Shown piece by piece: positions 17,739 to 61,702 of a DNA stretch of 64,000 nucleotides. Made by a program: the position numbers and the translations under genes. This stretch comes from Rubellicoccus peritrichatus (GTDB lineage: Bacteria; Verrucomicrobiota; Verrucomicrobiia; Opitutales; Cerasicoccaceae). The stretch spans positions 4,521,001 through 4,585,000 of the forward strand of contig NZ_CP136920.1 in NCBI RefSeq assembly GCF_033100135.1, given 5' to 3'. The notes under the pieces are model-generated. The model saw nothing but the letters and a program-made list of their open reading frames with translations. It was not told the DNA's origin and did no database searches. Position 1 is the stretch's first letter; every line of letters starts with the position of its first letter.

Positions 17739-17981
17739 TTATTTAGATTCCTTCGTCATCGCGTTATCAGCGGCTTCAGCCTGCACCCTCTGGATGCAGG
17801 CATCCAACGTTGCGATGCCTCCGTAATCTATGCCCATCTTCTCAAGTTTCTGGCGAGCATCAGATGACGCCCATTCAATTACTTGGCGTTGTGTATCGCC
17901 CATGCTGTCACCCTCATCGAGCTGTGCTGCAATTGATAACACATACAAGCGAGCAGCTTTCTTGATTATTGTCTTCTTCAT
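17739..17981 (-). CDS. Unrecognised small helical protein, 80 aa
   Basis: Start set to ATG 17981 (MKKTIIKKAARLYV); an upstream in-frame TTG at 17990 is less likely. N-terminus basic and helical, the rest rich in Ala, Asp, Glu. Preceded by the same ATAACCACTAAA leader motif as the following gene. Function unknown. Confidence 0.55.
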   Translation of the reverse strand: MKKTIIKKAARLYVLSIAAQLDEGDSMGDTQRQVIEWASSDARQKLEKMGIDYGGIATLDACIQRVQAEAADNAMTKESK

Positions 17982-18017
17982 GACATTCAAAATTTAGTGG
18001 TTATCGATCGTCGTTCG

Positions 18018-19613
18018 TCATTGGTTGATCATATGCGGATTAAATTCACATGGCGTAATCCCTGGTGGTACTCTCCAACGATTAGCAGCGACTCTATCAA
18101 TTAGCTTCTTAGCATCATCAAATGCCCATGTACCAACATGTTTAAATCCATAGCGCTCAAGGCATCTTATTTGCTTGGGTGTTGTGAGGCCTTCAGCTCT
18201 TCTCTTGTCCAGTCGATCAAGTATTTTTTTAGCCTTACCAGCATTCTCAATTTCGTCCGGCATGATACCTAGACGCTCTAAGCTGCTCCTCTGTGCAGCT
18301 GAGGGCGGTGCCATTTCCCATCCAAAGGCGGGAACATAATTAGCGAGGTCCTCAGACTCAATTGACATTTCAAATTGAAGTGGATCAACCAGCTTGCGCT
18401 TTCTATTGCGCATTTCAGCAAGCCTTTTTGCGAGTGCTTCCTCACGATCTGAGACACAATCAGCTTCAGCCTTTTCAATTGCCTCCTCCAGGTCAAAAGC
18501 AGCTCCCGCCGCGCCCTCTAGGTTCTTTGTTGCCTTCCTTGCAACCTCTTCCGATTCAGCAATTAAATAGGCTGGCCTGCAAAGCTCATGTTTCTCACTA
18601 TGCCAAAGGAAATCTAAAAGCAAAAGGTGATCCTTGTCTTCTAGAATGCGTGTTCCTCGTCCTACTATCTGACAGTAAAGACTCCTTACTTTAGTTGGAC
18701 GCAAACAGACAATGCAATCAACAGAGGGACAATCCCAGCCTTCTGTAAGTAACATTGAGTTACATAAGATGTCGTACTTACCATGTTCAAAATCTTGAAG
18801 AACCTCATCGCGATCTTTGCTTGATCCATTGACTTCAGCAGCTCTAAATCCGCGTGTCTCAAGCAAGGATCTCATCTTCTGGGACGTTGCAACAAGTGGA
18901 AGAAACACAACAGTCTTACGCCCCTTGCAATGCTCAACCATTTCATCAGCAATTTGCTCAAGGAATGGATCAAGGGCGCTACTTACTTCGGATAATTTAA
19001 AATCGCCCGATTGCATTGAAACTCCAGTAAGATCAAGCTTCAGCGGAATGGTTAGAGCCTTTATAGGGGCCAAGTAGCCCTCTTTGATAGCTTTAGGTAG
19101 AGTGTAGTCAAAGGCCAGCGAATCAAAGAACTGGCCAAGATTCCTCATATCTCCCCTGTCTGGAGTAGCTGTCACACCAAGCACTTTTGCATTTGGAAAA
19201 TGGTCAAAAATCCGCTGATAGCTATCTGCAAGAACGTGATGTGCCTCATCAACTATAATCACCTGATAATGATCACTACTGAACCGATCTAGGCGCTTCT
19301 GTCTCATAAGCGTTTGCACGCTCCCGACAGTAACACGGTAAAAGCTATCCTCGGCTGAGTCTTCAGCTTTCTCAACTGCACATTCAAGACCAGTCGCTTT
19401 GCGCATTTTATCAGCAGCTTGGCTAAGTAGCTCACCTCTGTGTGCAAGAATCAGGCATCTGTCACCTTGCGAAACTTGGTCCTCGATGAGCTTGCAAAAG
19501 ACTATTGTCTTCCCGCATCCAGTGGGCAGAACAAGAAGGGTCCTTTTGACCCCCTTGCTCCACTCCTCTCGGATGGCCTGTTTAGCTTCTGACTGGTATG
19601 GTCGTAATTCCAC
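18018..19613 (-). CDS. SF2 DEAH-box helicase, 531 aa
   Basis: ATP-dependent helicase/translocase. Motif Q region 'LRPYQSEAKQAI', Walker A PTGCGKT (30-36), 'LAHRGEL' motif Ia, DEAH (122-125), 'GVTATPDRGD' motif III, and QIVGRGTR motif VI (315-322) are all intact. The C-terminal ~170 residues are helical and charged and may bind partners. The start is GTG at 19613, just past the stop of the DUF669-like gene; no ATG fits the conserved N-terminus. Likely acts in phage replication or recombination with its upstream neighbours. Confidence 0.9.
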   Translation of the reverse strand: MELRPYQSEAKQAIREEWSKGVKRTLLVLPTGCGKTIVFCKLIEDQVSQGDRCLILAHRGELLSQAADKMRKATGLECAVEKAEDSAEDSFYRVTVGSVQTLMRQKRLDRFSSDHYQVIIVDEAHHVLADSYQRIFDHFPNAKVLGVTATPDRGDMRNLGQFFDSLAFDYTLPKAIKEGYLAPIKALTIPLKLDLTGVSMQSGDFKLSEVSSALDPFLEQIADEMVEHCKGRKTVVFLPLVATSQKMRSLLETRGFRAAEVNGSSKDRDEVLQDFEHGKYDILCNSMLLTEGWDCPSVDCIVCLRPTKVRSLYCQIVGRGTRILEDKDHLLLLDFLWHSEKHELCRPAYLIAESEEVARKATKNLEGAAGAAFDLEEAIEKAEADCVSDREEALAKRLAEMRNRKRKLVDPLQFEMSIESEDLANYVPAFGWEMAPPSAAQRSSLERLGIMPDEIENAGKAKKILDRLDKRRAEGLTTPKQIRCLERYGFKHVGTWAFDDAKKLIDRVAANRWRVPPGITPCEFNPHMINQ

Positions 19614-19615
19614 AA

Positions 19616-20071
19616 TCAGAACTTTCCGGGAGTGTAACCTTGCTCGGCAGGCTCAAGGAACTTATCAACCTTGTTGATAAATCTCTCCTCACTAGTTCCC
19701 TTCTTAATGTATTTTTCTTGGGCTAATTTAAGGCGACCCTTTGACCCGATAACCTTGTCCCAATTCATGCGAAGCTTCTCACCTTTCTTACGCTGACCAA
19801 TTGATGTAAAGAACTGACAAATTAGCCATTCTAGCTTTGTGTGAAGCAACAAGTCTTTTGTTAAATAAGCCTTGCCATGCTCACCCCCATCAACCTCAAG
19901 GCTCAGGACAGCCTTATTGCATGCGCCCAATTTTTCAGAGCCAGGAAATCTACCGCGCTCAAACTTTGTAACAGTGAATGGATATGCTCCATCAGGCAGG
20001 AGAACAAAATCATTCCCCTCGTTTTCGATTTCAGCATCCCATGCTAGTTCACTTCCGTTGTTATCACTCAT
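19616..20071 (-). CDS. DUF669-like single-strand-binding candidate, 151 aa
   Basis: Resembles phage DUF669 proteins: opening 'DFVLLPDGAYPFTVTKFERGRF', then 'CNKAVLSLEVDG' and the end 'GYTPGKF'. Proteins of this type are encoded next to Sak4-like ATPases and are suspected to bind single-stranded DNA. Sandwiched here between the ATPase and the SF2 helicase, which fits. Leader TTAACCTATTAAAGAAAG precedes the start. Confidence 0.7.
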   Translation of the reverse strand: MSDNNGSELAWDAEIENEGNDFVLLPDGAYPFTVTKFERGRFPGSEKLGACNKAVLSLEVDGGEHGKAYLTKDLLLHTKLEWLICQFFTSIGQRKKGEKLRMNWDKVIGSKGRLKLAQEKYIKKGTSEERFINKVDKFLEPAEQGYTPGKF

Positions 20072-20101
20072 CGTATTATACTTTCTTTAATAGGTTAATT
20101 G

Positions 20102-21142
20102 TTAGGCGACTGAATCAAGTTCCAGTTCTTTGATAATCTCCAATACCTTTGGCCAAGCAGCTATTAGGACGCCGTCTACAAAATCATCAGCATAACGGTC
20201 AATCGGTGTTGCCTCAGGATAGTAACCCTTGCTTGCAACGGCTTTTTGAATCTGCTTTGCCGAGATGCTATCCTTCTGCATTAACTCAAATAGCTTAGTC
20301 GGGAATCCTCCAGGGTTATCAAATGGGATTGATGTTCCCGTGGGCTGAGGCTCGGTAACTTTAGGATCGTTAATAGCTTCACGTTCCATTTTCAGTTCTT
20401 CGCTAGACGACTCTGTGAACTCTGCTAGTTCATCATCACCCTGAAAGATATGCTCAATATTGGAGAATTCAAAATCTAGCTCATCGGCTAGACCATGGCG
20501 ATTCTTCGCATCCCAGCACGGATGATGAGAAGTGCGCATAACACGACGACCGCCCTGGGCCTTCTTGCTTTTGGTTTTATCATCTTCAATTACAAAAGTT
20601 TTGTAATTTGCAAATAGAACCATATCAGCCCACTCCTTTACTAGGGGAGAGCATTTCTTAGTAAGCTTTAGCTCCCATCTGTCGTAAGCACCAATCTCAT
20701 CAGGCTGCTCAAACTTGCGCATATGAGCATGGGCAAGCAAAACAACATTGATCCCCTTCTCCCGCACATCATTCAGCAAATTTAAAAGCTTACCAAATTC
20801 CTCTGCCAAGTGAGTATACCCCTTGCCGTATCCAAAATCTTCAATACTGCTCTTGCCAGCGACAGCACATACATATTCTATGCATTGCCTCTCTGCCCAA
20901 TCAATCGTATCGATGATCAAGGTTTTAAACTCAGACTTTGCAACTTCCTCAACTTGAGATAGAATCATTGTCCAGCTTGCGGGTTTCTTTGTGCGAGCTA
21001 CATCAAGGTGATCTGTTGAGTCTTCTGTGTCGATGAAGACGGGATTTGGAAACTTGCTTCCAAATGTACTCTTTCCAATCCCCTCAGGACCATACACAAC
21101 TATTCGCTGCGCCTTGTTCTGTTTTCCTTTTATAATTTCCAT
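20102..21142 (-). CDS. Sak4-like AAA_24 recombination ATPase, 346 aa
   Basis: RecA-fold phage annealing/recombination ATPase. Walker A GPEGIGKS at residues 18-25 from the ATG, 'VFIDTEDSTDHLDV', Walker B 'TLIIDTIDWAE', and 'VVLLAHAHMRKFEQP' are the family's hallmarks. The ATG at 21142 is preferred; the longer frame begins with a TTG three codons upstream. A C-terminal ~100-residue extension (about 245-346) is acidic and then folded. Works with the DUF669-like protein, probably in homologous recombination or strand annealing. Confidence 0.82.
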   Translation of the reverse strand: MEIIKGKQNKAQRIVVYGPEGIGKSTFGSKFPNPVFIDTEDSTDHLDVARTKKPASWTMILSQVEEVAKSEFKTLIIDTIDWAERQCIEYVCAVAGKSSIEDFGYGKGYTHLAEEFGKLLNLLNDVREKGINVVLLAHAHMRKFEQPDEIGAYDRWELKLTKKCSPLVKEWADMVLFANYKTFVIEDDKTKSKKAQGGRRVMRTSHHPCWDAKNRHGLADELDFEFSNIEHIFQGDDELAEFTESSSEELKMEREAINDPKVTEPQPTGTSIPFDNPGGFPTKLFELMQKDSISAKQIQKAVASKGYYPEATPIDRYADDFVDGVLIAAWPKVLEIIKELELDSVA

Positions 21143-24735: not shown

Positions 24736-24900
24736 TTAGTTGGATTGCTTTTTCGGATTTGTGCCAAAAAGCAGAAATGTGACGTGTTCTTTAACCGTCC
24801 TGCCCTCGATCTTGGCTCGCTTCTCGAAACTCTTCAGTTCCTCGGGTCTCAGTAGCTTAGTAAGATTTAGTGTGACTGTTAGAGGTTTGGTGTTGCTCAT
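24736..24900 (-). CDS. Small RHH-like regulator at head of early operon, 54 aa
   Basis: Starts MSNTKPLTVTLNLTKLLRPE, ends NPKKQSN. A beta strand 'LTVTLNL' then two helices ('PEELKSFEKRAKIEG', 'TVKEHVTFLLFG') is the Arc/CopG ribbon-helix-helix plan. First gene after the divergent promoter and opposite the repressor gene, the place of a Cro-like protein (inference). Confidence 0.68.
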   Translation of the reverse strand: MSNTKPLTVTLNLTKLLRPEELKSFEKRAKIEGRTVKEHVTFLLFGTNPKKQSN

Positions 24901-25000
24901 GTTCTAAAATCTTAGATTTCAAAACATAAAAGTTTGAATTCAAAACTATTGCAACAAAAAAAGTTGTAATTTCTAAACTTTTTCATTTCCTCTTAAGAAT
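24901..25000. promoter_or_regulatory. Divergent promoter / operator region of the genetic switch
   Basis: AT-rich 100 nt between the early operon and the repressor. TTGCAA at 24949..24954 is self-complementary and could act as -35 both ways: plus strand 17 nt to TCTAAA (24972..24977), minus strand 17 nt to TTTTAT (24931..24926). Operator-like inverted repeats: TTTGAATTCAAA 24933..24944, TTGCAAC / GTTGTAA 24949..24969, TCTAA-AATC-TTAGA 24903..24916. Promoter hexamers match only 4 of 6 each. Confidence 0.55.
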
Positions 25001-25582
25001 ATGGCATCCGATATTACACCTGAATCGCTTAAAGAATGGCGAAAAGAACAGAAGATGACCCAAACTGAAATGGGCTCTCTGATGGGCTGGGAAAAACTTG
25101 TCGTAACAAATATAGAGACCGGGAGACGAAAAATCAGTGACGCCGAACAAAGGCTGTTAAAATTGCTTATCCATGGCGAGTTACCCTTTAATGCACCTGT
25201 TTCAGATGACGTACTTGAATTCGATCAAGATGAGTGGGGATTAATCCATCGCATGGCACAAAGAGAGGGCTACAGTGATGCGAAGGATTGGATTGTAAGT
25301 AAAATTAGGGCTTACCTTTCGATGCTGCCTAAGCAGAGTGAGGATATACCAGCCATTGAAGACCTCAAACCCGACCCAATCCCAGCAATTCCAGGAGCCG
25401 CAAGTAAGCCGACTTACACGCTCGAAGAAGCGAGACGACTAGCTGAGGCCGAGGCTGCTTCTCGGGATGACATTTCGGAGGAGCTTTACGATCAACAACA
25501 ACTTGAGAATGATCGTCTTTATGAGGAAGCTCGCAAAAAGAAGAAGGGTAAGCAGAAAAGTCAGAAACGGTTTTCAGCTTAG
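25001..25582 (+). CDS. XRE-type repressor candidate, 193 aa
   Basis: N-terminal HTH_3 domain, residues ~7-60: 'SLKEWRKEQKMTQTEMGSLMGWEKLVVTNIETGRRKISDAEQRLLKLL'. The middle is folded-looking; the last ~70 residues are Ala/Glu/Lys-rich and end in a basic tail (KKKKGKQKSQKRFSA). No LexA/CI-type peptidase domain, so classical RecA-triggered self-cleavage is not expected. It is the only plus-strand gene facing the early operon, the place of the lysogenic repressor. Its last 218 bp lie antisense to the response regulator gene. Confidence 0.75.
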   Translation: MASDITPESLKEWRKEQKMTQTEMGSLMGWEKLVVTNIETGRRKISDAEQRLLKLLIHGELPFNAPVSDDVLEFDQDEWGLIHRMAQREGYSDAKDWIVSKIRAYLSMLPKQSEDIPAIEDLKPDPIPAIPGAASKPTYTLEEARRLAEAEAASRDDISEELYDQQQLENDRLYEEARKKKKGKQKSQKRFSA

Positions 25583-25982
25583 TATCCCAGCGCTTGATTA
25601 ACACCATCAACTCAATCAGGCGAACCGGGTATTTTCCTGTCAGCTCGGCTTTGTCCAGGAATTCGATTGCTCCCAATGCAAGCGCCCGCCGCCGCTTGGT
25701 GTCGGTTGGCTTTGCTGACATGGCAATGATAGCTGGGTAGCGCCTCTGCACCCTCCAGAGATCCTTAATGTCACGCATGAGGGAAAGGCCATCAGTGCCA
25801 TGCCCTATCATCACATCGACAAAGACAGCATCAACCGCTTCGTTCTTAATTGCTTCTAGTTTGAATTCGAGCGGACTGGTGAACGTTGTGACCTTATAAT
25901 GACTTGTTCGTTCTATCTGCTCCTTGATTATTATGTTGTTGTACTCTTGGTCGTCTAAGACCAGAATTTCTCTTTTCTGCAT
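25365..25982 (-). CDS. Stand-alone response regulator (receiver domain), 205 aa
   Basis: From ATG 25982 the protein shows a complete receiver fold: 'REILVLDDQEYN' with acidic pair Asp10-Asp11, phospho-acceptor Asp56 in 'AVFVDVMI', Ser89 in 'AIIAMSAKP', Lys111 in 'EFLDKAEL'. All five key positions are present, so it should be phosphorylatable. No HTH or enzymatic output domain follows; the C-terminal ~70 residues are unrelated and lie antisense to the repressor's 3' end. A TTG at 26009 would add nine residues. It lies between the repressor and integrase. Likely binds another protein according to host kinase signals (inference). Confidence 0.85.
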   Translation of the reverse strand: MQKREILVLDDQEYNNIIIKEQIERTSHYKVTTFTSPLEFKLEAIKNEAVDAVFVDVMIGHGTDGLSLMRDIKDLWRVQRRYPAIIAMSAKPTDTKRRRALALGAIEFLDKAELTGKYPVRLIELMVLIKRWDTKLKTVSDFSAYPSSFCELPHKDDHSQVVVDRKAPPKCHPEKQPRPQLVVSLLRACKSAYLRLLELLGLGRV

Positions 25983-26036: not shown

Positions 26037-26066
26037 GAACGTTTTTGCACAGCTGCAAATTCGTTC
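26037..26066. promoter_or_regulatory. Imperfect 30-bp palindrome upstream of response regulator
   Basis: GAACGTTTTTGCA-CAGC-TGCAAATTCGTTC: 13-bp arms with two mismatches. Together with a direct repeat AAGCTCGC at 25989..25996 and 26008..26015 (19-bp spacing) it occupies the space between the RHH gene and the response regulator gene, a likely promoter/operator. Confidence 0.45.
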
Positions 26067-26281: not shown

Positions 26282-26368
26282 TTCCGCGATGTCACTAGCT
26301 AAAACACTGACATTCAAGACAAAAGAGCCTTGCCATACTGCATGATGTGTCCTACACACTAAGACAAT

Positions 26369-26539
26369 ATGGGCGATGAGAGACAGCGGACATGTATTGT
26401 CCTACCTGAAAATCTGATCAAGCGAATAGACAAATTTGTAGCACAGAAAAACCTTAGCAACAGGAGCGAAGCATTAGAAAAAGCTCTTGAGGAAATACTA
26501 CCTGAAGAAGATGAAACGAAGCTTAACGAAGCTGAATAG
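26369..26539 (+). CDS. Ribbon-helix-helix (CopG-like) regulator, 56 aa
   Basis: Starts MGDERQRTCIVLPENLIKRI; 'RTCIVLPENLIKRIDKFVAQ' then 'SNRSEALEKALEEIL' is a textbook RHH plan, ending in an acidic tail (PEEDETKLNEAE). The 87-nt space to the opposite RHH gene holds GTGT-CCT-ACAC (26347..26357), and TGTCCTAC recurs at 26348 and 26398, possible operator half-sites. Could be an antitoxin-like or phage regulator; no toxin partner seen. Confidence 0.75.
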   Translation: MGDERQRTCIVLPENLIKRIDKFVAQKNLSNRSEALEKALEEILPEEDETKLNEAE

Positions 26540-26626
26540 TGTCCGATACTATTAATGAACCCCCTAAAATATTAGGGCAAGAAATCAACCTAACTCCCCT
26601 CCCTGTCTCAATTCCAGTAAGTGCCG

Positions 26627-27007
26627 ATGAGACAGCTTGACGACATAAACGCACACCTTGAGAGCCTGATAGACAAGTATGGTGGCACTCAAACAGCACT
26701 CCTGACCAAGCTGAAGTTAGAGGGCAAGGACTATCTGCTGTCACGCTTTCGCCGAGATGGGAGCATGGATGAAGTCTTTGTTGCCGCTGCTGTCAATTAC
26801 TTGACCGAAGACGAAGCCCTACCCTTTGCCACCTACTACATCAATGCAATTTTGAAGCCCCCCTACGCGCTAGACGTTGTCAGATACGATAAGCAGAGGC
26901 GAAAGACTGCACACGACCTGGATACTTTACCCAAGAAAGAAGAGAACATGTTTCTGAGGGGGCTTTCGGCTATCATACACATTATCAACCGCCCTGACAA
27001 AAAGTAG
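26627..27007 (+). CDS. Unrecognised immunity-region protein, 126 aa
   Basis: Start set at ATG 26627 (MRQLDDINAHLESLIDKYGG); GTG 26621 is an alternative. 'GTQTALLTKLKLEGKDYLLSRFRR' looks like a helical, possibly DNA-binding segment, and the rest is mixed. Upstream, CCCTAA-AATA-TTAGGG (around 26562..26577) is an inverted repeat. Function unknown; position suggests lysogenic expression. Confidence 0.6.
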   Translation: MRQLDDINAHLESLIDKYGGTQTALLTKLKLEGKDYLLSRFRRDGSMDEVFVAAAVNYLTEDEALPFATYYINAILKPPYALDVVRYDKQRRKTAHDLDTLPKKEENMFLRGLSAIIHIINRPDKK

Positions 27008-27090: not shown

Positions 27091-27498
27091 TCATAGCTCC
27101 TCGTCTCGCGTATTGGCAGCTATATCTGGATCATAACCCAGGATCGATTTAGCGACATGGTGAGCGTCCCAATGTTTAGGCGGGATCATGTCTCGCTCCT
27201 GCCGGAACTCCACATTGCGCCAGTGCTCCAAAACGCCTACCTGCTTGCTGATGACCTGCTGTAAGTCCTCAACCTTGTCTGACAGAGCAAGGCCGCTCAA
27301 CATTGGCCAGTCGGGAGCGTGCATTTCAAACCCCGCCTCTTTCGCGGTATCCACATGGGCTTGAAGCTCCTGAAAAAGCATACTGATGGCTTGGCGCAAT
27401 TTCTCCGGGTCATCACAGTTTTGGGCAATGTGCCTCCAGTAAAATGCTCCCTGTTTTGCGCTGCTCATATAGTAAGATGGCTGTCTTTCTGCTGGCAT
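27091..27498 (-). CDS. Unrecognised protein next to integrase, 135 aa
   Basis: Helical, with Gln-rich stretch 'AISMLFQELQAHVDTAKEAG' and 'EDLQQVISKQVGVLEHWRN'. It follows the integrase on the minus strand after 58 nt and converges with the plus-strand 126-aa gene. A weak inverted repeat CTAGGG...CCCTAAG (27060..27076) in between could end both transcripts. Function unknown. Confidence 0.6.
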   Translation of the reverse strand: MPAERQPSYYMSSAKQGAFYWRHIAQNCDDPEKLRQAISMLFQELQAHVDTAKEAGFEMHAPDWPMLSGLALSDKVEDLQQVISKQVGVLEHWRNVEFRQERDMIPPKHWDAHHVAKSILGYDPDIAANTRDEEL

Positions 27499-27556: not shown

Positions 27557-28630
27557 TCACGGCCTCAACTCAGCAAGGTTTGACGCCATCGCCTTTGTAA
27601 TACCCATGCCCTGATAGTTTTGATACAACATATCTTGGTTTCGATGACCCAAATTTTTGGCGGTTGCTGCAGGATCAGCGAAGTAAGCAACGTGATAGGT
27701 GCAATGGGTGTGACGAATAGCGTCATGGGGCCAATCTCGAATAGTTTTACCCCTGTTGGCATATCCCGCTAGTTGCTTCCATCGCTTGGTGACGCTTGAT
27801 GGCATTATTTTACAAACTGGACCCTTTCTCATTTCTTTGGGAATCGACTCTAGCCATTCCCAAATGACATCGAAATGCTTGCTGTCTCCGTCGAGTATGC
27901 GCCCGCTCTCCCCCTTGCTGGTGACATTTGTTAAAGTAATGATCCTGTCAGAAAGATTGATGTCACGTTCCCATGTCATGGCGGGCTTGCTGCCACCGGG
28001 CGCGATCTCATGCGGCCTCAACCCTGCGAAGATTCCAAGAGCAGCCGATGCCCTAAGATTCATTTTGGCACCCCTGAGGATGAAAACTATGTCGTCAAAC
28101 TCAAGAATCCGAGGCTTCCCGGATTCATCCTTAGCTCTGTAATCCTTGCGGGCCGTTGCGTTCGGCATCCTCAGCTTCAGCTTTTGGGCTGGGTTGATCG
28201 GAATCAAGGGAGGCTCCAAACTACAAGCATATCCAAACAAAGCCCTAATGGCCCGATGGTGACAGTTGATGCTTCCAACTGACAGCTTCAGTCCCTCCAA
28301 GTAGCCTACAACGTCATTGCGGGTTAGTTCGCCTATCCGCTTATTGCCGTGTTGATCCAGGAATCCCGGAATAGTGTCTTGGTAGAATTCCAAGGTTTCC
28401 ATGGACATGGGCTTAGGCTGTCCCGATCTCACGCGATTCAGGCACTCCAGGAGCCATTTATCGCATACTTCAGACACAGTAGGACCTGACCCAGTAACAG
28501 AACTATGCCCAATATGAGACTTGCCTATTCGAACAAGCTCAAGGAAGTTAAAACCCGTTCCTTCAGCTTCAGCGACCGCCAAGCGCGTAAGCTGCTTTTG
28601 TTCAGGACTTAATGCGAAATTACTTCTCAT
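27557..28630 (-). CDS. int: Tyrosine-recombinase integrase, 357 aa
   Basis: Site-specific recombinase that inserts and excises the phage. Catalytic-domain landmarks: Arg205 in 'FAGLRPHE', Lys239 in 'TSKG', 'HDAIRHTH' with Arg306 and His307, His329 in 'LGHRNQ', nucleophile Tyr339 in 'YQNYQG'. N-terminal SAM-like core-binding domain ~48-135. The HDAIRHT spacing and C-terminal 'GITKAMASNLAELRP' recall integrases I associate with PVC-group bacteria. It reads away from the att core, 140 nt from it, the normal int-attP layout. Confidence 0.92.
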   Translation of the reverse strand: MRSNFALSPEQKQLTRLAVAEAEGTGFNFLELVRIGKSHIGHSSVTGSGPTVSEVCDKWLLECLNRVRSGQPKPMSMETLEFYQDTIPGFLDQHGNKRIGELTRNDVVGYLEGLKLSVGSINCHHRAIRALFGYACSLEPPLIPINPAQKLKLRMPNATARKDYRAKDESGKPRILEFDDIVFILRGAKMNLRASAALGIFAGLRPHEIAPGGSKPAMTWERDINLSDRIITLTNVTSKGESGRILDGDSKHFDVIWEWLESIPKEMRKGPVCKIMPSSVTKRWKQLAGYANRGKTIRDWPHDAIRHTHCTYHVAYFADPAATAKNLGHRNQDMLYQNYQGMGITKAMASNLAELRP

Positions 28631-28927
28631 GGACCTCCTGATTTTTCATAGGGAGGATTCTCTCGAAAATGCCCCAAAATGTCAATATTTTGCCTATATT
28701 TTGGAGAATTTAGACCGCAAAAAAGGTCGTTTTTCAGCCAAAGATATTCTGTAAGTCGTTGAATATCAAATGGCACGCCGCCAGGGAGTCGAACCCCGAA
28801 CCTCCTGATCCGTAGTCAGGGATTTCAACATTGATTATCAATGGCTTACAAAAGCCATTTTGTACTAAACAGGGCATTTTCCATTTTCTAGGCCCAAATT
28901 CGTCAAATATTACGAGCTATGAGCATG
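28631..28927. other. Integrase upstream / attP region
   Basis: 297 nt without a supported gene. It holds the tRNA-derived att core, an inverted repeat AATGGCTT-ACAA-AAGCCATT at 28840..28859, the small palindrome ATTGA-TTA-TCAAT (28829..28841), GACC-GCAAAAAA-GGTC (28713..28728) and AT-rich sequence that may carry integrase arm sites and the int promoter. Confidence 0.6.
28771..28820 (-). other. attP core: 3' part of tRNA-Arg(ACG)
   Basis: Minus strand reads as a tRNA from anticodon arm to CCA: stem CCTGA, loop CTACGGA (anticodon ACG), stem TCAGG, variable AGGTT, T-stem CGGGG, T-loop TTCGACT, CCCTG, acceptor strand GCGGCGT, G, CCA. Bases beyond 28820 do not form a D-arm or 5' half, so it is not a full tRNA gene. 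Phages carrying such a piece restore the host tRNA on integration. Confidence 0.88.
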
Positions 28928-57293: not shown

Positions 57294-57929
57294 TTAGAAC
57301 CCATCACAGAGGCTTTGAAGATCGTGCAATGCAGCACGCATGTTACCATTGCAGCCTTCGGCAATCTTTCTCACTTCGGAAGGATCAAGCCTTGGCCAAT
57401 GACGCATTGCGAATTCGTGAATCTCTTCGGATGTCAGACTCTTAACTTCCAATGGTGTGAATCTGGTTTGAAACCTGTCAGAGAAATTCTCCGTATGGTT
57501 GTTGCTAGTTCCAATAATCGCTACGCACTCGGGAAGCTTGTCTATGACATCAAGCATGAGATCTTGAGCCCTTGCTGGTACGGTGTCTATCTCCTCAATG
57601 ACGAGCACACGCCAACCAGAATAAAGAGACCCAATTCTAAAGTCTCGTTGCCATTGGCGAACCAAATCCACGTCAACATTGATCCCAGAATATGAGAGTA
57701 TGTTCTCTCTGTGCTCAGCTATTGTATTGGCAGCAATTTCAGCTAAGGCTGACTTTCCACAACCAGGATCACCAATGAGAAGCACGGTCCATTTTCCAAA
57801 CTTGCTAAGACTGAGCTTCTTAGCCTTCTTGACGAGAGGTTCAGCTAATTCTCTGGCATCTCCGCATAGGTCCTCAACTCTAATGTTCGGATTGTTGATC
57901 AAGTCTGATGGTTCTATTTGAGCAATCAT
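57294..57929 (-). CDS. Clamp-loader-like AAA+ ATPase, 211 aa (copy 2)
   Basis: Same as 21574..22209. Confidence 0.82.
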   Translation of the reverse strand: MIAQIEPSDLINNPNIRVEDLCGDARELAEPLVKKAKKLSLSKFGKWTVLLIGDPGCGKSALAEIAANTIAEHRENILSYSGINVDVDLVRQWQRDFRIGSLYSGWRVLVIEEIDTVPARAQDLMLDVIDKLPECVAIIGTSNNHTENFSDRFQTRFTPLEVKSLTSEEIHEFAMRHWPRLDPSEVRKIAEGCNGNMRAALHDLQSLCDGF

Positions 57930-60720: not shown

Positions 60721-61302
60721 ATGGCATCCGATATTACACCTGAATCGCTTAAAGAATGGCGAAAAGAACAGAAGATGACCCAAACTGAAATGGGCTCTCT
60801 GATGGGCTGGGAAAAACTTGTCGTAACAAATATAGAGACCGGGAGACGAAAAATCAGTGACGCCGAACAAAGGCTGTTAAAATTGCTTATCCATGGCGAG
60901 TTACCCTTTAATGCACCTGTTTCAGATGACGTACTTGAATTCGATCAAGATGAGTGGGGATTAATCCATCGCATGGCACAAAGAGAGGGCTACAGTGATG
61001 CGAAGGATTGGATTGTAAGTAAAATTAGGGCTTACCTTTCGATGCTGCCTAAGCAGAGTGAGGATATACCAGCCATTGAAGACCTCAAACCCGACCCAAT
61101 CCCAGCAATTCCAGGAGCCGCAAGTAAGCCGACTTACACGCTCGAAGAAGCGAGACGACTAGCTGAGGCCGAGGCTGCTTCTCGGGATGACATTTCGGAG
61201 GAGCTTTACGATCAACAACAACTTGAGAATGATCGTCTTTATGAGGAAGCTCGCAAAAAGAAGAAGGGTAAGCAGAAAAGTCAGAAACGGTTTTCAGCTT
61301 AG
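60721..61302 (+). CDS. XRE-type repressor candidate, 193 aa (copy 2)
   Basis: Same as 25001..25582. Confidence 0.75.
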   Translation: MASDITPESLKEWRKEQKMTQTEMGSLMGWEKLVVTNIETGRRKISDAEQRLLKLLIHGELPFNAPVSDDVLEFDQDEWGLIHRMAQREGYSDAKDWIVSKIRAYLSMLPKQSEDIPAIEDLKPDPIPAIPGAASKPTYTLEEARRLAEAEAASRDDISEELYDQQQLENDRLYEEARKKKKGKQKSQKRFSA

Positions 61303-61702
61303 TATCCCAGCGCTTGATTAACACCATCAACTCAATCAGGCGAACCGGGTATTTTCCTGTCAGCTCGGCTTTGTCCAGGAATTCGATTGCTCCCAATGCA
61401 AGCGCCCGCCGCCGCTTGGTGTCGGTTGGCTTTGCTGACATGGCAATGATAGCTGGGTAGCGCCTCTGCACCCTCCAGAGATCCTTAATGTCACGCATGA
61501 GGGAAAGGCCATCAGTGCCATGCCCTATCATCACATCGACAAAGACAGCATCAACCGCTTCGTTCTTAATTGCTTCTAGTTTGAATTCGAGCGGACTGGT
61601 GAACGTTGTGACCTTATAATGACTTGTTCGTTCTATCTGCTCCTTGATTATTATGTTGTTGTACTCTTGGTCGTCTAAGACCAGAATTTCTCTTTTCTGC
61701 AT
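61085..61702 (-). CDS. Stand-alone response regulator, 205 aa (copy 2)
   Basis: Same as 25365..25982; phospho-acceptor and pocket residues intact. Confidence 0.85.
   Translation of the reverse strand: MQKREILVLDDQEYNNIIIKEQIERTSHYKVTTFTSPLEFKLEAIKNEAVDAVFVDVMIGHGTDGLSLMRDIKDLWRVQRRYPAIIAMSAKPTDTKRRRALALGAIEFLDKAELTGKYPVRLIELMVLIKRWDTKLKTVSDFSAYPSSFCELPHKDDHSQVVVDRKAPPKCHPEKQPRPQLVVSLLRACKSAYLRLLELLGLGRV

Follow-up and report, generated by a model that had tools for sequence, protein, structure and literature searches.

A stand-alone receiver gene between the probable repressor and integrase genes of a tandemly repeated Rubellicoccus peritrichatus prophage

Why would a temperate phage carry a response regulator receiver with no output domain beside the genes for immunity and integration? 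This question is raised by a locus in the window analyzed here, a 64,000 nt stretch of the Rubellicoccus peritrichatus genome (NZ_CP136920.1, bp 4,521,001-4,585,000). The initial annotation had placed a lone receiver between a repressor and an integrase, and this location agrees with the gene order found: the receiver gene is flanked on one side by an HTH gene, to the left of which the early genes are transcribed leftwards on the minus strand from bp 24900, and is separated on the other side from a tyrosine integrase gene by four small genes. The features of the locus, in window coordinates, are as follows.

24899-24927, no strand: ATGTTCTAAAATCT-T-AGATTTCAAAACAT, a near-perfect palindrome with arms of 14 nt around a single central nucleotide, located between the early operon and the HTH gene
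25001-25582, plus strand: HTH_3 (Cro/CI-type) DNA-binding protein, probable repressor (Pfam)
25365-25982, minus strand: stand-alone receiver gene of prophage unit 1, 205 aa, ATG start (open reading frame, Pfam, AlphaFold2)
25365-25583, minus strand: residues 134-205 of the receiver protein, its C-terminal tail (opposite the HTH gene, with codon statistics like those of an antisense frame)
25584-25982, minus strand: receiver domain proper, residues 1-133 (Pfam, coding-like codon statistics, predicted fold)
26037-26066, no strand: palindrome GAACGTTTTTGCA-CAGC-TGCAAATTCGTTC, candidate operator located 55-84 bp before the receiver start codon
26108-26281, minus strand: RHH (CopG/Arc-like) small DNA-binding protein (domain profiles)
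26369-26539, plus strand: second RHH small protein (domain profiles)
26621-27007, plus strand: 128 aa protein without known family (no Pfam, PHROGs or NCBIfam assignment)
27091-27498, minus strand: 135 aa protein without known family (no Pfam, PHROGs or NCBIfam assignment)
27557-28630, minus strand: tyrosine integrase (domain profiles)
28768-28820, no strand: junction of units 1 and 2, with an attachment core of 53 bp that corresponds to the 3' part of a tRNA-Arg gene (converted from genome coordinates)
61085-61702, minus strand: second, identical receiver gene copy, in unit 2 (sequence identity)

The 205 aa protein matches Pfam PF00072 (Response_reg) over residues 6-112 (E-value: 5.1e-13, 49.6 bits), which clears the curated cut-off of 30.2 bits for this profile. 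Its signature set is complete: the acidic pair D10/D11, the phospho-acceptor D56, S89 and K111. The same set is present in many host receivers, and following alignment with 18 other receivers D11, D56, A90 and K111 were invariant. The signature residues are those that the initial annotation had named as evidence of a receiver, a claim confirmed by the profile match and the alignment, and its statement that a DNA-binding output is absent also stands, as Pfam, PHROGs and NCBIfam searches matched only the receiver (PHROG 731: 1.1e-9) and no second or output domain. AlphaFold2 gave a (beta-alpha)5 fold for the receiver alone with a pLDDT of about 90 (blocks of 86-95 over residues 1-110), made up of E5-9, H13-26, E30-34, H37-46 and E50-56 in the first half and H65-78, E84-89, H94-102, E107-110 and H120-138 in the second, and the PDB structures closest to this model are receiver domains. 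Neither of the outcomes named beforehand as counting against a receiver was seen: the fold is not lacking, and the protein is complete rather than a decayed fragment. Judged from its residues and model, it looks like a functional, complete receiver with no output.

In having a receiver with the signature residues and no output, the protein resembles single-domain response regulators such as CheY, Spo0F and DivK, and like these it is likely to work through protein contact. It differs from them in being phage-encoded beside a repressor and an integrase and in having an antisense tail. Its identity to any receiver found is low (at best 37%, over the domain). The top PDB sequence match, also among the two best fold matches, is the receiver of RpfC (PDB 3m6m, E-value: 1.3e-8), but RpfC is a hybrid kinase that contains its receiver as one of its parts, whereas the phage receiver is free-standing. 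Predicted receiver structures are present in BFVD for other viruses, including uncultured tailed phages (e.g. A0A6J5RMP2 and A0A8S5T1F5, 19-22% identity), and phage-borne receivers are therefore not new as such. Exact-phrase searches of open-access text found no phage-encoded response regulator in lysogeny and no receiver-based case. The domain type is known, while its placement in the immunity region of a temperate phage is unusual.

The receiver and HTH genes are convergent and overlap by 218 bp, the last 72 codons (3' end) of the HTH gene lying opposite receiver codons 134-205. The two strands were compared by a codon score, for which 24 long genes of the same phage served as the training set. 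The receiver core scored +0.125 per codon and the tail -0.122, with reference values of +0.178 +/- 0.093 for 72-codon windows of the training genes and about -0.15 to -0.22 (+/- 0.09) for antisense frames. Because the HTH gene scores as coding over the overlap (+0.265 per codon) and the tail scores as antisense, the HTH strand is taken as the coding strand in this stretch. The antisense frame stayed open in 5% of synonymous HTH gene recoding trials, and the tail was predicted to be largely low-confidence coil with one helix (residues 179-199). As its codon statistics are antisense-like, the tail is probably an unselected run-on, though one that is necessarily translated whenever the frame is read. 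This arrangement could also mean that the locus works mainly through transcription, with the receiver transcript running antisense into the repressor gene and onward to the early operon, which has the same orientation. The convergent overlap would fit such a role, as would the result that no convincing minus-strand terminator was found within the HTH gene, but promoter and terminator scans of the locus were near background and the intact receiver pocket would be left unexplained; we regard this as improbable.

A search of 50,697 phage records using tblastn (E-value ≤ 0.01) found no match to the receiver. Pattern scans of viral contigs and genome contigs confirmed no orthologs, plasmids contained only generic receivers, and none of 384 genomes of the class contained an ortholog (best match: 37% identity, domain only). 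It had been suggested that homologues be sought in other prophages at the same locus; this search did not turn up a lone receiver beside the HTH protein homologues of three other genomes, beside related integrases or in six TerL-related prophage regions (one on a 19.7 kb contig), the sole receiver in those six regions being a 444 aa protein some 33 kb from TerL. Scanning viral contigs for the HTH protein, the integrase and TerL turned up no relatives. Thus, among relatives that are few and distant, a conserved association of receiver and repressor was not found, and because no receiver accompanies the relatives of the repressor, integrase or TerL, the gene appears to be accessory rather than a conserved part of a switch.

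Several other receiver matches were set aside. Generic receiver queries had many matches in the phage collection, and those inspected looked like host DNA: gut phage records marked UNVERIFIED carried host-like two-component or flagellar loci, and the match in phage record OQ658365.1 (bp 57295-57603) is close to genes for transaldolase and dihydrouridine synthase and may belong to host flank within the record. Two lone receivers of related genomes (L051 and L052) are outside phages, in ordinary operons where each is next to a histidine kinase. Among the HTH homologues, those at L048 (about bp 2412) and L049 (about bp 10081) are each interrupted by a single in-frame stop past the HTH domain and may be pseudogenes or shortened forms.

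One explanation for an accessory receiver with such a tail is that it was acquired recently as a passenger and is unused or no longer used, the run-on marking the onset of decay. The lack of orthologs in the phages, contigs and class genomes searched is consistent with recent acquisition, as is the third-position GC content of the core (0.58 vs. 0.43 in phage genes), and the tail resembles unselected antisense sequence. However, the catalytic residues are all intact, the codon statistics of the core are coding-like, its fold is well predicted and the gene is identical in 4/4 copies. We consider an unused passenger unlikely.

Cargo genes are commonly located in the interval that separates repressor and integrase. 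Based on the accessory distribution and this cargo-like position, we favor an effect on host signalling and put the probability at roughly 45% that the receiver is a cargo-type single-domain response regulator. On this reading, Asp56 would be phosphorylated by a host histidine kinase, a host phosphorelay or a small phosphodonor, and in lysogeny or at an early stage of infection the protein would act through contact with a partner, most likely a component of host signalling, serving as a connector or a phosphate sink. Besides the phage's own, the host genome contains 58 receiver matches. When 55 host receiver regions were compared with the phage receiver using BLAST, the best (27% identity over 97 residues) was found in a 1328 aa frame, which probably encodes a hybrid kinase. 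These two receivers have three residues in common at the five positions that we take to face the kinase, which were picked from general kinase-regulator contacts. It is this large host protein whose receiver the kinase-facing residues most resemble, which would fit phosphate from a host phosphorelay. Pfam scans of part of the unit's proteins found no kinase, HATPase or Hpt domain. A cargo receiver would give a prophage a compact means to bend host signalling. Counting against it, the gene continues at its end into the antisense strand of the repressor gene, as though it no longer had a stop of its own, and a position adjacent to the repressor fits a role in the switch equally well.

The initial annotation had gone further, suggesting that the receiver could let a host kinase influence the lysis-lysogeny decision. 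On a reading of this kind, the receiver would be phosphorylated by a host kinase, bind the HTH repressor or the RHH proteins and alter repression, permitting SOS-free induction. The adjacency of the two genes and the intact phospho-acceptor pocket are consistent with this, and so is the HTH protein itself. Only the HTH domain of this protein was matched in Pfam, with no S24 peptidase domain detected, and its low-confidence model has helices only, the C-terminal helix being long. As no S24 domain was detected, the classical SOS response, with RecA-stimulated self-cleavage, is not expected, and on sequence and model the repressor is probably non-cleavable. Modules for DNA damage-independent induction are described for other prophages (PMC10432266), and phage VP882 has the quorum-sensing receptor VqmA (PMC10426928). 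Both are cases of phage genes answering cues other than DNA damage, but VqmA is a receptor-transcription factor. Against the proposal, the receiver is not conserved with relatives of the repressor, integrase or TerL, and the identity of the HTH protein as the repressor, though probable, is itself something that we infer. The earlier claim therefore stands in part: a complete, output-less, phage-borne receiver is present in the immunity and integration region, but its membership in the lysis-lysogeny switch is not supported, as the relatives examined are without a lone receiver alongside and position is the one argument for it. We view an input of this kind to the switch as rather unlikely, and it is doubtful that the stand-alone receiver of a temperate phage here reads the host phosphorelay and sets lysis or lysogeny through a non-cleavable repressor or RHH proteins. 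Were the receiver to act on the switch, host two-component signalling would be linked directly to the fate of the prophage, without DNA damage as the trigger.

The palindrome upstream of the receiver gene suggests that a phage regulator may control expression of the receiver. A genome-wide search found it only in the four prophage copies, and the chance of such a palindrome in the 125 bp gap is about 0.015; it is without a U-tract, its half-site occurs at chance-level frequency in the window and the folding energies around it are unremarkable. The palindrome at bp 24899-24927, at the start of the early operon, is not rarer than chance by the same measure and is a candidate repressor operator. 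TGTCCTA-like repeated motifs at bp 26341-26405, between the two divergent RHH genes, are candidate RHH operators.

A 35,720 bp prophage is repeated in tandem here, and the window covers the greater part of two of its units. Four tandem copies occupy a tRNA-Arg site in the genome (about bp 4478380 to 4621278), and the four identical copies of the receiver gene are spaced 35,720, 35,720 and 35,738 bp apart. The 53 bp core that forms the array boundary corresponds to the 3' part of the tRNA-Arg gene (based on identity and on the anticodon ACG, read by eye), and the tRNA is complete at the right end. When the sequence was compared with itself at an offset of 35,720 bp, zero mismatches were seen over 96 kb. 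Three units appear identical, while the fourth unit has 90 differing alignment columns at unit coordinates 17906-20654 (about 2.75 kb). The prophage looks intact and the array looks like a real polylysogen, although it may stem from an assembly effect. Through the four tandem copies, gene dosage also enters the question of what the receiver does. Elsewhere in the genome (L093, bp 3464000-3483000), an integrase 33% identical to that of the phage is located about 4 kb from a protein with MPDAFIEIVTGSLGAGKTYSAVEKW that is Zot-like by eye, and this region is possibly a filamentous prophage.
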